From Candidatus Thiodictyon syntrophicum (GTDB lineage Bacteria; Pseudomonadota; Gammaproteobacteria; Chromatiales; Chromatiaceae), in contig NZ_CP020372.1 of assembly GCF_002813775.1 (NCBI RefSeq), forward strand, positions 1 to 64,000: a stretch of DNA of 64,000 nucleotides. Reading direction: 5' to 3'. Below are positions 2,833-38,956 of the stretch, one piece after another. Below the pieces are notes generated by a model. It saw only the letters and a program-made list of their open reading frames with translations, was not told where the DNA came from and did no database searches. Both the position numbers and the translations under genes were made by a program. How positions within the stretch are numbered: the stretch's first letter is position 1; every line of letters begins with the position of its first letter.

Positions 2833-3402
2833 ATGCGGTTCGTTGGTACCCTCAAGAAATGGAACGACGACCGGGGCTTTGGCTTTATCGCCCCAACGCG
2901 TGGCGGGGATGACCTTTTTGTTCACATCTCATCCTTTCCGAGGGACGGATCGCGCCCGCGGCTCGACGAGCCCGTAACCTTTGAAGTCGCAGTAGACAAC
3001 GAAGGAAAGAAGCGTGCCGTCAAGGTTCTTCGTCCCGCCGGCGCCCGGCCGCATCCGGTCCGCCGCGCGACCCCTCAAGGTCCGCGGCACATTCAAAGCT
3101 ATCTTTCTGGTCTTGCGACGGTGCTACTGGTTGGCGCAGTCGGCATCTTCGGCTACCTTGAGTACGCGCGGCAATCCAACGACCAAGCCCCTACGCGCCT
3201 TGCCGAGTCGCCAAAGGGCTTGCTGGCTCCCCCACCTCAACCCAGTGCACCTGAACGACGCTGTGATGGCCGAACCCGTTGCTCGCAGATGACATCATGT
3301 GCCGAGGCCAGGTTCTTTCTGGGAAACTGTCCGGGCGTTGAAATGGACGGAGACGACGATGGCGTCCCGTGCGAGCAACAGTGGTGTAACGCCCCTTGGT
3401 GA
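2833..3402 (+). CDS. Cold-shock domain / membrane / excalibur fusion protein
   Basis: A 189-aa protein with three parts. Residues 1-68 are a cold-shock domain with RNP1 (RGFGFIAP, about 14-21) and RNP2 (DLFVHIS, 27-33), which binds single-stranded nucleic acid. A hydrophobic helix at about 88-106 (YLSGLATVLLVGAVGIFGYL) anchors it in the inner membrane. The C terminus (about 143-187) is an excalibur-type calcium-binding module: Cys-rich with DGDDDGVPCEQQWC. The predicted topology puts the nucleic-acid-binding part in the cytoplasm and the calcium module in the periplasm. A GGGGAAG ribosome site precedes the ATG. Similar cold-shock/excalibur fusions occur in proteobacteria; the function is not known. 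Confidence 0.8.
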   Translation: MRFVGTLKKWNDDRGFGFIAPTRGGDDLFVHISSFPRDGSRPRLDEPVTFEVAVDNEGKKRAVKVLRPAGARPHPVRRATPQGPRHIQSYLSGLATVLLVGAVGIFGYLEYARQSNDQAPTRLAESPKGLLAPPPQPSAPERRCDGRTRCSQMTSCAEARFFLGNCPGVEMDGDDDGVPCEQQWCNAPW

Positions 3403-14413: not shown

Positions 14414-14659
14414 TTACTTGGCGGCAGGCGCCGGGGCAACCACGGCGACGGGAGCGTGAAGCTTCGCGACGGAATCCTTGAAGCCATAGCCGGGCAGTGA
14501 GAGGGCATAGCTGTGGACAAGCCACATCTGGACCATCAGCACGATAAACCACGGCACCATCCAGTTGGCCGGATTGATCACGGTCCAGATCTTCCAGTCT
14601 TCTTCCGGATGCTCGATCTTGACGATGGTTTCATCGGCCAGCAGATACGGAACTTTCAT
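14414..14659 (-). CDS. pucA: LH2 alpha chain (copy 1)
   Basis: An 81-aa light-harvesting complex 2 alpha polypeptide. The N terminus MKVPYLLADE and IEHPEEDWKIWTVINPANW are typical of Chromatiaceae LH2 alpha. The single membrane helix (WMVPWFIVLMVQMWLVHSYA) contains the His that ligates bacteriochlorophyll a, and the end is an Ala/Pro-rich tail. It is the last gene of the minus-strand order B-A-B-A. It differs from the copy at 14975 mainly in ETIVKIEHPEED versus ESVKIEHPEDD and in the tail, so the pair arose by tandem duplication. Confidence 0.95.
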   Translation of the reverse strand: MKVPYLLADETIVKIEHPEEDWKIWTVINPANWMVPWFIVLMVQMWLVHSYALSLPGYGFKDSVAKLHAPVAVVAPAPAAK

Positions 14660-14708
14660 TTAAATACCCCGTTAGTGTAAAATTTGGATCAGAGCAGAGA
14701 GGAGCGGA

Positions 14709-14849
14709 TCAGAACCAGGGCTGATAGGCCCAAGTCACCAAGTGGACAGCGGATGCAATCATCACCCAACTCCACACGCCATGCTTCCAATGCTCATGAA
14801 ACTCCTTCGCCTGCTCGTTGGTGAGACCCGAGATGTTGCCAGAATTCAT
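14709..14849 (-). CDS. pucB: LH2 beta chain (copy 1)
   Basis: A 46-aa LH2 beta polypeptide, MNSGNISGLTNEQAKEFHEH at the start and VHLVTWAYQPWF at the end. His residues in FHEHWKH and VHLVTW are the bacteriochlorophyll ligands, and the C-terminal aromatic cluster is typical. I found it by translating the gap upstream of pucA, 49 bp away. A GAGGTT-type ribosome site lies upstream. The product is identical to the copies at 15260, 20152 and 20712 as far as I can read. Confidence 0.95.
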   Translation of the reverse strand: MNSGNISGLTNEQAKEFHEHWKHGVWSWVMIASAVHLVTWAYQPWF

Positions 14850-14974
14850 TTTCGTAACCTCTTAAGAACGTTTGATGATGTGCGATCCCGCCCGTGAGGG
14901 CGAAGAATCGCTTACTAGACCGCGGTGCTTGGACCCGCGGTCGCGAGCCGGGACCGGACCCGGGGGGGCGAGCT

Positions 14975-15217
14975 TTACTGAGCGACAGGCGCCGGTGCGA
15001 CCACCGCGACGGGTGCATGAAGCTTCGCGGCGTGATCCTTGAAGCCATAGCCGGGCAGGGACAGGGCATAGCTGTGGACCAGCCACATCTGGACCATCAG
15101 CACGATGAACCACGGCACCATCCAGTTGGCCGGGTTGATCACGGTCCAGACCTTCCAGTCGTCTTCCGGGTGCTCGATCTTGACGCTTTCATCGGCCAGC
15201 AGATAGGGGACTTTCAT
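14975..15217 (-). CDS. pucA: LH2 alpha chain (copy 2)
   Basis: An 80-aa LH2 alpha polypeptide with the same plan as copy 1: MKVPYLLADE, a WKVWTVINPANW entry, a membrane helix with the ligand His in MWLVHSYAL, and a tail ending APAPVAQ. It is preceded by AAGGTAATTTAA before ATG, a leader shared with other alpha genes here. It forms a cotranscribed pair with the beta gene at 15260-15400. Confidence 0.95.
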   Translation of the reverse strand: MKVPYLLADESVKIEHPEDDWKVWTVINPANWMVPWFIVLMVQMWLVHSYALSLPGYGFKDHAAKLHAPVAVVAPAPVAQ

Positions 15218-15259
15218 TTAAATTACCTTAGTTTACGTTTAAGTCTGGACGAGGCCGAA

Positions 15260-15400
15260 TCAGAACCAGGGCTGATAAGCCCAGGTTACCAAGTGGACCG
15301 CAGATGCAATCATCACCCAGCTCCACACACCATGCTTCCAGTGCTCATGAAACTCCTTCGCCTGCTCGTTGGTCAGACCCGAGATGTTGCCGGAATTCAT
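15260..15400 (-). CDS. pucB: LH2 beta chain (copy 2)
   Basis: A 46-aa LH2 beta polypeptide, MNSGNISGLTNEQAKEFHEH...AYQPWF. It is the promoter-proximal gene of the left LH2 operon. The promoter with two TGT-N12-ACA palindromes lies 125-190 bp upstream. It provides the beta partner of the alpha chain at 14975-15217. Confidence 0.95.
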   Translation of the reverse strand: MNSGNISGLTNEQAKEFHEHWKHGVWSWVMIASAVHLVTWAYQPWF

Positions 15401-15524: not shown

Positions 15525-15590
15525 AGTTTAACCCGTCGGCCGACCGTGTCAAGACTAACTGACATTTATTTGTGTCAGGGCCAGCTTACA
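15525..15590 (-). promoter_or_regulatory. LH2 promoter with two PpsR/CrtJ-type palindromes
   Basis: Read on the minus strand: -35 TTGACA (complement of 15547-15552), 16-bp spacer, -10 TAAACT (complement of 15525-15530). Two TGT-N12-ACA sites, 15547-15564 and 15573-15590, are spaced 26 bp start to start; the proximal one covers the -35. CTGACA and TGTCAG also form an inverted repeat between them. TGT-N12-ACA is the established recognition form of PpsR/CrtJ, the aerobic repressor of photosynthesis genes. The arrangement is nearly identical to that at 21014-21079. Confidence 0.8.
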
Positions 15591-15841: not shown

Positions 15842-16153
15842 CTAGAACCAGGGTTGATACGCCCAGGTCACCAGATGAACGGCCGCGGCGATCATCACCC
15901 AACTCCAGACGCCATGCTTCCAGTGCTCGTGGAATTCTCTCGCCTGCGCGTCGGTGAGGCCCGACAGGTTCGCGGTCTTCTGCCCAGTGGACTTCGCTGA
16001 TCCACCAACGTGGCCCGCTTGGTTCGGGGTCTTCTGCTCAGCGGGCTTTGATGGCCCGCCGACCGGGGCCGCCTGGTTCGCGGTTTTCTGCTCAGCGGGC
16101 TTCGCTGGTCCGCCAGCGAGGCCCGGCGATTTGGGCGTTTTCCACACAGCCAT
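15842..16153 (-). CDS. pucB: Orphan LH2 beta chain with N-terminal repeat extension
   Basis: A 103-aa protein whose last 41 residues are an LH2 beta chain (LSGLTDAQAREFHEHWKH... to AYQPWF, with both ligand His). The first 62 residues are foreign to the family: an 8-10-residue start (MAVWKTPKSP), then three 18-residue repeats at 11-28, 29-46 and 47-64 built on GGPAKPAEQKTANQ. The third repeat merges into the normal beta N terminus. It has its own promoter with a TGT-N12-ACA site and a ribosome site AGAGG, but no alpha gene follows. The beta part differs from the other copies (TDAQAREF, MIAAAV), so it is not a recent copy. Confidence 0.85.
   Translation of the reverse strand: MAVWKTPKSPGLAGGPAKPAEQKTANQAAPVGGPSKPAEQKTPNQAGHVGGSAKSTGQKTANLSGLTDAQAREFHEHWKHGVWSWVMIAAAVHLVTWAYQPWF
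15969..16130 (-). repeat. Three 54-bp tandem repeats inside the orphan beta gene
   Basis: Units begin at 15969, 16023 and 16077 (plus-strand TTCGCGGTCTTCTGC, TTCGGGGTCTTCTGC, TTCGCGGTTTTCTGC) and are exactly 54 bp long. They encode the 18-residue protein repeats in frame. The copies have diverged by several substitutions but not in length, which suggests the frame has been kept under selection. Confidence 0.9.
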
Positions 16154-16284: not shown

Positions 16285-16324
16285 AGTGTAGCTTGACATA
16301 GCTTCGTGTCAAGGAGCATTGACA
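16285..16324 (-). promoter_or_regulatory. Promoter of the orphan LH2 beta gene with PpsR/CrtJ-type site
   Basis: On the minus strand -35 TTGACA (complement of 16307-16312), 16-bp spacer and -10 TACACT (complement of 16285-16290). A TGT-N12-ACA palindrome at 16307-16324 covers the -35, the same geometry as in the two LH2 operons but with a single site. Confidence 0.65.
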
Positions 16325-19853: not shown

Positions 19854-20105
19854 TCAGCTATACTTGGCGACGGAAGCCATGGCAACCACGGCGACGGGTT
19901 GGTGCTTCTTCGCGGCGGAATCCTTGAAGCCATAGCCAGGCAGGGAGAGGGCATAGCTGTGAACCAGCCACATCTGGACCATCAGCACGATGAACCACGG
20001 AACCATCCAGTTGGCTGGGTTGATCACGGTCCAGACCTTCCAGTCTTCTTCCGGATGCTCGATCTTGACGATCTTTTCATCGGCCAGCAGATACGGAACT
20101 TTCAT
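19854..20105 (-). CDS. pucA: LH2 alpha chain (copy 3)
   Basis: An 83-aa LH2 alpha polypeptide with MKVPYLLADEKIVKIEHPEE, a WKVWTVINPANW entry, the ligand His in MWLVHSYAL and a tail rich in Ala and Val ending KYS. It is the last gene of the right BABA operon. It is closest to copy 1 over the N-terminal half. Confidence 0.95.
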   Translation of the reverse strand: MKVPYLLADEKIVKIEHPEEDWKVWTVINPANWMVPWFIVLMVQMWLVHSYALSLPGYGFKDSAAKKHQPVAVVAMASVAKYS

Positions 20106-20151
20106 TTGCGTTACCTTAGACGTTAGACTTGGATAGACCAGTCGAATCAGA

Positions 20152-20292
20152 TCAGAACCAGGGTTGATAAGCCCAGGTCACCAGGTGGACAGCGGATGCA
20201 ATCATCACCCAACTCCACACGCCATGCTTCCAGTGCTCATGAAACTCCTTCGCCTGCTCGTTGGTCAGACCCGAGATGTTGCCAGAATTCAT
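20152..20292 (-). CDS. pucB: LH2 beta chain (copy 3)
   Basis: A 46-aa LH2 beta polypeptide with the same translation as copies 1 and 2 (MNSGNISGL...AYQPWF). It lies 46 bp upstream of its alpha partner. The alpha genes have diverged more than the beta genes, which suggests stronger constraint or gene conversion on beta. Confidence 0.95.
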   Translation of the reverse strand: MNSGNISGLTNEQAKEFHEHWKHGVWSWVMIASAVHLVTWAYQPWF

Positions 20293-20417
20293 TTTCGAAA
20301 CCTCATACGTGACATTTGTGAGAAGAGCGAGTTCACCGTTACGGGTGAAGACCGCTCTTCAGTGGCGGGGTACTTGAACCCGCGATCCAGCGCCAGATAC
20401 CCTGCGGCGCTTTGTTC

Positions 20418-20672
20418 TTACTGAGCGACGGGAGCCGGGGCGACCATCACGACGGGCTGCTTCGCGGCGTACGCTTCGGCGGCGGCATCCTTCCAGCCAT
20501 AGCCGGGCAGGGCCAGGGCATAGGTGTGAATCATCCACATTTGGACCATCAGCACGATGAACCACGGAACCATCCAGTTGGCCGGGTTGATCACGGTCCA
20601 GATCTTCCAGTCATCTTCCGGATGCTCGATCTTGACGATCTTCTCATCGGCCATCAAATAAGGGACTTTCAT
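20418..20672 (-). CDS. pucA: LH2 alpha chain (copy 4)
   Basis: An 84-aa LH2 alpha polypeptide, the most divergent copy: MKVPYLMADEK, helix end MWMIHTYALALPGYGWKDAA and a tail with EAYAAKQPVVMVAP. Changes around the ligand His (LVHSYALS to MIHTYALA) are of the sort that shift LH2 absorption in other species through lost or gained hydrogen bonds. That effect is inference. Confidence 0.95.
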   Translation of the reverse strand: MKVPYLMADEKIVKIEHPEDDWKIWTVINPANWMVPWFIVLMVQMWMIHTYALALPGYGWKDAAAEAYAAKQPVVMVAPAPVAQ

Positions 20673-20711
20673 TTAAATTACCTTGGTTTGTGAAGTTTGG
20701 ACGAAGTCTGA

Positions 20712-20852
20712 TCAGAACCAGGGCTGGTAAGCCCAGGTCACCAGGTGGACAGCGGATGCGATCATCACCCAGCTCCACACGCCATGCTTCCAATGCTCGT
20801 GAAATTCCTTTGCCTGCTCGTTGGTCAGACCCGAGATATTGCCAGAATTCAT
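20712..20852 (-). CDS. pucB: LH2 beta chain (copy 4)
   Basis: A 46-aa LH2 beta polypeptide, promoter-proximal gene of the right operon, with the same translation as the other short beta copies. The promoter with two TGT-N12-ACA sites lies 160-230 bp upstream. Confidence 0.95.
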   Translation of the reverse strand: MNSGNISGLTNEQAKEFHEHWKHGVWSWVMIASAVHLVTWAYQPWF

Positions 20853-21013
20853 CTTCATAACCTCAAAGACGTTGTGAAAAAACCGTCCCCATCAGCCTAT
20901 GGCGGCAGAGACACCCACCGTCGATCCAGATCGCAACACCCTGGCGCCCCGCATCCTGACTTAATTTGTTCGAGACGGGTTGCGTCTTGGAACAGCCCGG
21001 CGATCTAGGCGCT

Positions 21014-38581: not shown

Positions 38582-38956
38582 ATGACCGCATCCGTGCAAG
38601 CAGACCTGTACAAGGTTTGGAAGATCTTCGATCCGCGCCGTACCCTGATCGCGCTGTTCGCCTCCCTGGGTGTCCTCGCCCTGCTGATCCACTTGATCCT
38701 GCTCAGCACCGCCAACTTCAACTGGCTCGACACCGCCTATGCCGTCCCGCCGGTTTCGCGTCCGGTCGTGGTCAGGGCGCCCGTCGCGCCGAAGGCTGCG
38801 GTCGCGGCCCCGGCTGCGGCGAAGGCCCCGGTTGCTGCCCCGGCTGCGGCGAAGGCCCCTGCTGCTGCCCCGGCTCCGGCTGCTGCCCCGGCTGCGGCGA
38901 AGGCCCCGGTTGTGGCGGCTCCCGCTGCGGTCGTGGTCCCGGCACCGGCGAAGTAG
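38582..38956 (+). CDS. pufA: LH1 alpha chain with long Ala/Pro C-terminal tail
   Basis: A 124-aa protein. The first 54 residues are a normal LH1 alpha chain ([20 protein letters not shown], ligand His in [20 protein letters not shown]). Residues about 55-124 form an Ala/Pro/Val/Lys tail with repeated APAAAKAP units, roughly twice the usual total length. The tail would lie on the periplasmic side. The second LH1 alpha (42463-42693) has a short tail of the same kind, so the extension probably grew by repeat expansion. GGAGC precedes the ATG. Confidence 0.95.

Follow-up and report, generated by a model that had tools for sequence, protein, structure and literature searches.

The polypeptides that make up LH2 rings are usually regarded as short and nearly bare. 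A long extension is presumably present in Puc2A of Rhodobacter sphaeroides, and Puc2BA resembles the locus described here in that ordinary LH2 copies are accompanied by an unusually extended polypeptide. In Puc2BA, however, the extended chain is the alpha, which the available part of the source gives as absent from the complex, with Puc2B present at a low level (PMC9618040). The nearest known structure, PDB 6ZXA, is a heptameric LH2 with okenone from Marichromatium purpuratum, whose beta has 48 residues and no tail. According to the available part of its description, the N-termini of alpha and beta lie on the cytoplasmic side, and the beta could be traced only from its fifth residue; beta-Asn7, Gln15, His25, Trp30, His38 and Phe48 take part in ring contacts or in pigment binding, a cytoplasmic hydrogen bond from beta-Asn7 to beta-Gln15 joins subunits, and mass spectrometry of this LH2 revealed three alphas and three betas (PMC7880592). 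Here, we describe an LH2 beta of Thiodictyon syntrophicum Cad16T whose core is near identical to that of the 6ZXA beta but which carries a 61-residue repeat tail and has no adjoining alpha gene.

The gene lies in C3:1-64000 of the Cad16T genome (7,738,984 bases in three contigs), a stretch of 64,000 nucleotides on plasmid pTs485 that was analysed as a whole and is called the window below. The photosynthesis genes of Cad16T are carried by this plasmid (PMC5944118, available in part). An intact ORF of 103 residues runs on the minus strand from an ATG at 16153 to a stop at 15842, exactly where the first-pass annotation had placed it, and comprises an N-terminal tail (codons 1-61; 15971-16153) and a core (codons 62-103; 15845-15970) delimited by the PDB match, the 6ZXA alignment and a 10-row alignment. 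A wrong start codon was ruled out: a TAA stands immediately 5′ of the ATG, and ATG1 and GTG3 are the only start codons (ATG/GTG/TTG) ahead of the core, so the core without the tail could arise only by trimming.

The assignment to LH2 betas, also made in that annotation, is borne out by the core, which is nearest in the PDB to 6zxa_B (46 residues aligned, E 3.4e-25). The six 6ZXA residues named above correspond to N62, Q70, H80, W85, H93 and F103, all invariant in the 10-row alignment, and the beta residues for the inter-subunit hydrogen bond and the B800/B828 pigments are thereby kept, including the BChl-binding histidine (H93, equivalent to 6ZXA His38); PWF is found at 101-103, and a single helix is predicted at 66-98. 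One alpha of the window that was tested (14975-15217) best matches 6zxa_A (E 1.7e-31). With the Pfam LHC model (PF00556) the extended beta scores 19.7 bits against a cut-off of 23, and the three ordinary LH2 betas tested also fall below it (21.3-21.5); with NCBIfam NF040862 it scores 59.2 against a cut-off of 61, compared with 61.2 for an ordinary beta. A length of about 45-50 residues is usual for an LH2 beta, but it is not strictly defining, because tails of 25-39 residues exist, as described below.

The extra length had been taken as about 62 residues made of three in-frame 54-bp repeats, each encoding 18 residues. The repeats are real according to Tandem Repeats Finder (15956-16125; period 54, 3.1 copies, score 207, indels 0) and the long repeat tail stands, while the figures become 61 residues and about 3.7 units. 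Unit 1 (GGPAKPAEQKTANQAAPV; codons 14-31; 16061-16114), unit 2 (GGPSKPAEQKTPNQAGHV; codons 32-49; 16007-16060) and unit 3 (GGSAKSTGQKTANLSGLT; codons 50-67; 15953-16006), all on the minus strand, were defined by this program and by alignment, and unit 3, which extends into the core, by an 18-mer match as well; in Cad16T, 44 of 54 bases are identical between units 1 and 2, 41 between units 1 and 3 and 38 between units 2 and 3. A partial first copy, unit 0 (AVWKTPKSPGLA; codons 2-13; 16115-16150, minus strand), is recognized by its base matches to units 1, 2 and 3 (21, 23 and 22 of 36 bases); this summed match is equalled by 4 of the 127,928 36-mers of the window on both strands, which necessarily include the stretch of codons 2-13 and the three units themselves. 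At the other end the repeats merge into the gene's own N-terminal segment: the last 18 bases of unit 3, which code for NLSGLT of the core, agree with unit 1 and with unit 2 at 11 of 18 positions each, and this joint match is equalled by 58 of 127,964 window 18-mers, the units' own ends included. Because ordinary LH2 betas start with a sequence like MAE-K..NLSGLT, the simplest origin of the tail would be tandem copying of this stretch within the gene itself (M-A-E-Q-K-T-A-N-LSGLT-like), joined by a GGxxK spacer, to yield 61 unstructured, basic residues.

The tail has a net charge of +6 and consists to 85% of G/P/A/Q/K/S/T/N; its 8 Lys and 2 Glu are the same in all three genomes that encode it, and its pI in Cad16T is 10.2. 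An AlphaFold2 model from 10 sequences, read no further than tail and helix because its pTM is only 0.25, gives pLDDT below 50 for residues 1-62 and a helix at 66-98; the tail is predicted to lack structure and is probably disordered. Foldseek with this low-confidence model found no PDB match at E<=10. A known domain in the tail was ruled out, as Pfam and NCBIfam match the core alone, and of 47 matching PDB sequences, no light-harvesting chain aligns before query residue 56, and a ribosomal protein (E 0.31) is the only one that matches the tail.

A search of 55 relative genomes, Cad16T included, recovered the full-length protein from three (Cad16T, G006 and G002). The two orthologues, both of 103 residues, belong to the Thiodictyon MAG Loclat_bin-12166 (98% identical) and to Lamprocystis purpurea DSM 4197 (93%); the remaining 27 of the 29 loci of the named-genome search start a few residues before the core, like ordinary betas. 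A search of 210 Chromatiaceae genomes with the tail only retrieved the same three genomes, at E 1.1e-27 or better, along with weak matches in five others (E 8e-4 to 8e-3). The genus contains eight genomes, Cad16T included, and only the three with the tailed form have betas that match at 68% or above; elsewhere in the genus the match is at most 45%, and one genome has none. The first-pass annotation had feared that the extension might be unique to one assembly and variable in copy number, a concern removed, together with that of a sequencing or assembly artefact, by the same length in three assemblies. Plasmid or phage cargo was also rejected: five plasmid records matched, the best with 68% coverage and 35% identity, while phages gave no match and viral_contigs none that was confirmed, in searches from which own-genome records were possibly left out. 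Another genome of the same GTDB genus, G005, is without the Cad16T tail; at its locus L103 there are two betas (1593-1844 and 3094-3345) with a possible N-terminal extension of MAEP/MAEQK/MAAP-like pieces, the start of which is uncertain.

Among the three tailed genomes, the core shows 0 non-synonymous changes in each pair, against 2, 6 and 4 synonymous ones, and the tail 2, 7 and 7 non-synonymous changes, with dN/dS of 0.69, 0.81 and 1.25. Between Cad16T and L. purpurea, 10 of 183 sites differ in the tail, compared with 49 of 251 in the 3′ intergenic region (Fisher p 1.5e-5), 37 of 194 upstream (p 7e-5) and 18 of 132 in the 5′ UTR (p 0.015), that is, 2.5-3.6 times fewer differences in the tail DNA than in the non-coding flanks. 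Between Cad16T and the MAG the corresponding counts are 3/183 in the tail against 15/251, 4/194 and 6/132, so that here the tail has changed hardly more slowly than the upstream flank. No gap columns occur in the tail, compared with 3-9 in the flanks of the L. purpurea pair, partly from the unequal lengths of the stretches supplied, although internal indels in the flanks are plain in the three-genome alignments. These comparisons suggest that the tail is held as a stretch; constraint on its single residues does not follow from three sequences.

Is such a tail peculiar to these three genomes? To the first-pass annotation an LH2 beta like this was not known from any description, and the 61-residue repeat form was found in just 3 of 210 genomes, but extended LH2 betas in general are not rare: shorter N-terminal tails are found in at least 21 of the 210 Chromatiaceae genomes. 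With two tailed betas of other genera as queries, the L092 type is present, among the matches listed, in 12 genomes (near full length, query start 1 or 2, at least 79% identity) and the Thiocapsa type in 9 (full length, at least 75% identity), the query's own included in each; the two sets do not overlap, and both counts are lower bounds. The loci read were 13 of the L092 type, from those 12 genomes and G033 (L092, L094, L097, L098, L100, L107-L114), and 9 of the Thiocapsa type (L085-L091, L101, L115). In L092-type loci a distal start codon (GTG in 12, ATG in 1) precedes the core by 39 residues in L100 and by 25-29 in the other 12, and each of the 13 has a second possible start, an ATG 1-4 residues ahead of the core, from which an ordinary short beta would result. 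In all 9 Thiocapsa-type loci an ATG lies 28-33 residues before the core, with no further ATG between them. The pN/pS of the tail is 0.51 in the L092 type (core 0.11; 10 loci, L111, L112 and L114 being removed by a filter on the start) and 0.62 in the Thiocapsa type (core 0.07; 8 loci, without L115), values that speak for translation of the short tails. In the Thiocapsa-type loci L085-L091 and L101, the alpha partner has a long acidic C-terminal tail, rich in E/A/P/V, on the membrane face opposite to the beta tail.

The short tails resemble the Cad16T tail in being A/P/G/K/Q-rich extensions before SLSGLT, several with AEQK..GG.AKP. They differ in length (25-39 residues when counted from the distal start), in their FKVTYTAFVG-type core, in the alpha gene directly downstream, which is found in 22 of 22 loci (13 L092-type and 9 Thiocapsa-type), and in showing no tandem 18-residue repeats. 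Another origin, compatible with the explanation of the tail preferred below, is conceivable, namely that it is a multiplied homologue of a shorter Chromatiaceae tail (AEQKKPAAQTKGGGSAKP-like, also of 18 residues); we consider this possible, somewhat more doubtful than not. In local alignments, the likeness of the Cad16T tail to eight of nine L092-type tails was equalled by 8-140 of 5000 shuffles, or by 38-330 if the shuffling spared the first five residues, which ordinary betas share, but that to the ninth (L113) by 1109. For the L. purpurea tail, four of nine comparisons were equalled by 54-120 and five by 359-1137 of 5000 shuffles, or 60-1565 with the first five residues kept, and in an earlier test of 15 tails, five were equalled by at most 45 and ten by 60 to 1400 of 2000 shuffles. 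The likeness, measured by tests made after it had been noticed and not corrected for their number, is suggestive only.

The gene had been said to have its own PpsR-type promoter, which is supported as a motif conserved across the three genomes. A palindrome of the form TGTCA-N8-TGACA (TGTCAAGGAGCATTGACA; 16307-16324) came from a motif scan and overlaps a promoter-like site from a promoter scan, TTGACA-16-TACACT (16285-16312, minus strand), unchanged in the three-genome alignment; the distance from the start of the palindrome to the ATG is 171 bp in Cad16T and the MAG and 174 bp in L. purpurea. Sites of this form with at most one mismatch number 8 in the window against 0.86 expected. The PpsR/CrtJ consensus is TGT-N12-ACA (PMC4452267, available in part), and this looser form occurs 15 times against 5.8 expected, a weak excess when taken alone, with 1 of 100 shuffles reaching 15. 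Each of two pucBABA operons in the window has two TGT-N12-ACA sites 8 bp apart, and the extended beta gene has one. Two PpsR-CrtJ genes above the family cut-off are encoded on the same plasmid (G000 C3:108724-110049 and C3:138699-140012). With such a site at its promoter and PpsR genes on its plasmid, the extended beta has, as far as sequence motifs can tell, what is expected of a member of the PpsR/CrtJ regulon.

The first of these pucBABA operons (14414-15400, minus strand), defined like the second by its ORFs and gene order, encodes two ordinary LH2 beta-alpha pairs, which are candidate alpha donors; the extended beta gene lies 441 bp upstream of it on the same strand. The second (19854-20858, minus strand) encodes two further pairs. 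The claim that the extended beta stands alone thus holds in that no alpha ORF adjoins it, so that the usual gene pairing of an LH2 beta with an alpha is missing, but fails in that an operon follows 441 bp downstream. The next light-harvesting gene downstream is a beta in Cad16T and at loci L048 and L049, and in the MAG and L. purpurea the order beta, alpha, beta, alpha follows the tailed beta; upstream, an O-methyltransferase gene and dxs are divergent. The window holds five LH2 betas and four LH2 alphas, and no antenna genes were found elsewhere in the Cad16T genome. Transcriptional read-through from the extended beta into pucBABA is possible, because no convincing terminator was found between them: the one candidate has 6 pairs (15559-15578), and the 3 terminator-like sites of the scanned stretch do not exceed what shuffles give (mean 1.8, sd 1.3). 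Elsewhere in the window, at 38786-38917, an LH1-type alpha gene has tandem repeats of 30/48 bp in its C-terminal tail, which is rich in A/P/K.

Six expressed antenna proteins of Cad16T, AUB85355-85357, 85361, 85363 and 85710, are named in the available part of a proteome report, in which AUB85354 is a DUF2868 protein (PMC6413534). The window ORF 11669-13780 matches DUF2868, and if the numbering is consecutive, AUB85355-85357 correspond to the alpha, beta and alpha genes that come next. In that case 85361 and 85363 can be antenna proteins only if one or two of the four intervening genes (the beta at 15260, the extended beta, the methyltransferase and dxs) are unnumbered. AUB85710 should be one of the antenna genes of the window, because none was found outside it, and it may or may not be the extended beta. 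The unmodified extended beta of Cad16T would have a mass of about 10,921 Da and yield the predicted tryptic peptides SPGLAGGPAKPAEQK, TANQAAPVGGPSKPAEQK, TPNQAGHVGGSAK and TANLSGLTDAQAR. By gene count it corresponds to THSYN_31015, which is absent from the LH2 genes listed in the genome paper (THSYN_30995-31045 without 31015; PMC5944118). Open-licence literature yielded no account of an LH2 beta extended at its N-terminus, a scope that does not establish its absence from print; the N-terminal extensions in the available parts of PMC10516601 and PMC10214105 are those of reaction-centre subunits, and the available parts of PMC13116554 and PMC11762602 hold nothing on this gene.

How could a beta without an alpha gene of its own enter a ring, and what would its tail do there? 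We tentatively prefer, just short of an even chance, the explanation that it is a genuine okenone-type LH2 beta, minor in amount, which borrows neighbouring alphas and bears a flexible basic tether on the cytoplasmic side. Its core would enter heptamer-like LH2 rings by pairing with the alphas of the neighbouring puc operons, under whose PpsR-type control the minor beta would also stand. Mixed sets have a precedent in M. purpuratum LH2, where several alphas coexist with several betas, and from this mixture and the five betas against four alphas in the window we infer the borrowing. If the extended beta inserts like other betas, its tail must lie on the cytoplasmic side, as had been proposed and as the 6ZXA N-termini support by analogy. 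With the N-termini of LH2 betas directed to the cytoplasm, the tail would project from the cytoplasmic rim of the ring, and as the first four beta residues of 6ZXA are untraced there, it need not clash with the ring. It may serve as a flexible tether touching neighbouring rings, anionic lipid or adjacent membrane vesicles; a linker, docking or stacking role, as had been proposed, would be compatible with the data. LHCII and Lhcb4 of plants belong to a protein family unrelated to LH2. Their stromal N-terminal loops, which like the tail are flexible, partly positive and on the n-side of the membrane, bridge facing antenna complexes (PMC7069969, available in part) and show, by analogy and not homology, that such a device can work.

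The sequences themselves show an intact ORF, repeats that match the N-terminus of the gene and pass into it, conservation in three genomes, intact contact residues in the core and a promoter motif, whereas translation, incorporation into rings, minor-subunit status and tethering are what we infer for this chain. The slower change of the tail DNA than of the flanks between Cad16T and L. purpurea, the basic and probably disordered tail and the pN/pS of the shorter tails also favour this explanation; against it speak the dN/dS of the tail, its hardly slower change than that of the upstream flank between Cad16T and the MAG, the missing adjoining alpha, the low pTM and the absence of a Foldseek match. 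The selection data on the tail are the weakest link of a functional reading, against which it also counts that no transcript or protein evidence is tied to the extended beta. On present data it is nearly as likely, if doubtful in itself, that the core is an ordinary LH2 beta and the tail a tolerated intragenic duplication on a disordered terminus, with no role of its own. A passenger of this kind would account for a tail dN/dS near 1 beside a core dN of 0, for the low-complexity composition, and for the beta N-termini of other genera, which are also tailed and vary in length and sequence. It would not lead one to expect the same tail length, frame and unit number in three genomes whose flanks have internal indels, the slower change of the tail DNA than of the flanks between Cad16T and L. 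purpurea, or a pN/pS below 1 in the shorter tails elsewhere.

The excess of betas over alphas in the window and the one PpsR-type site, against two 8 bp apart at each pucBABA, would also suit a device for assembly or dosage: by changing how this beta inserts or pairs, the tail would let it into rings only seldom or at a fixed position, and so restrict ring size, cap rings or mark some of them, perhaps with the help of assembly factors. Since the core contact residues are all ordinary and no assembly factor is linked to the tail, we regard this as rather improbable. A decaying or unexpressed paralogue, to which the absence from the genome paper's list (by gene count) would point, is barely credible with a core dN of 0 in three pairs and a conserved promoter motif and reading frame. 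A bolder version of tethering follows from the tail units being copies of the segment around beta-Asn7, a contact residue kept as Asn in units 1-3: they might dock on the cytoplasmic rims of neighbouring rings and act as a multivalent clamp, cross-linking LH2 within the membrane or between vesicles. Such a clamp is a long shot; if true, it would be a bacterial antenna 'Velcro' made by copying a native contact element.

The tether therefore stays our preferred, tentative explanation. What appears to be new, at the level of genes, is a self-copied repeat tail of 61 residues on an LH2 beta, with shorter N-terminal tails more widely distributed in Chromatiaceae. These tails would give natural attachment points for tethering, with an effect on ring packing that is testable by tail deletion, for instance in genomes of the Allochromatium type, which have the short form, and a conserved cytoplasmic beta tail, together with the wider set of short ones, would add a protein linker element to the packing of antenna rings.
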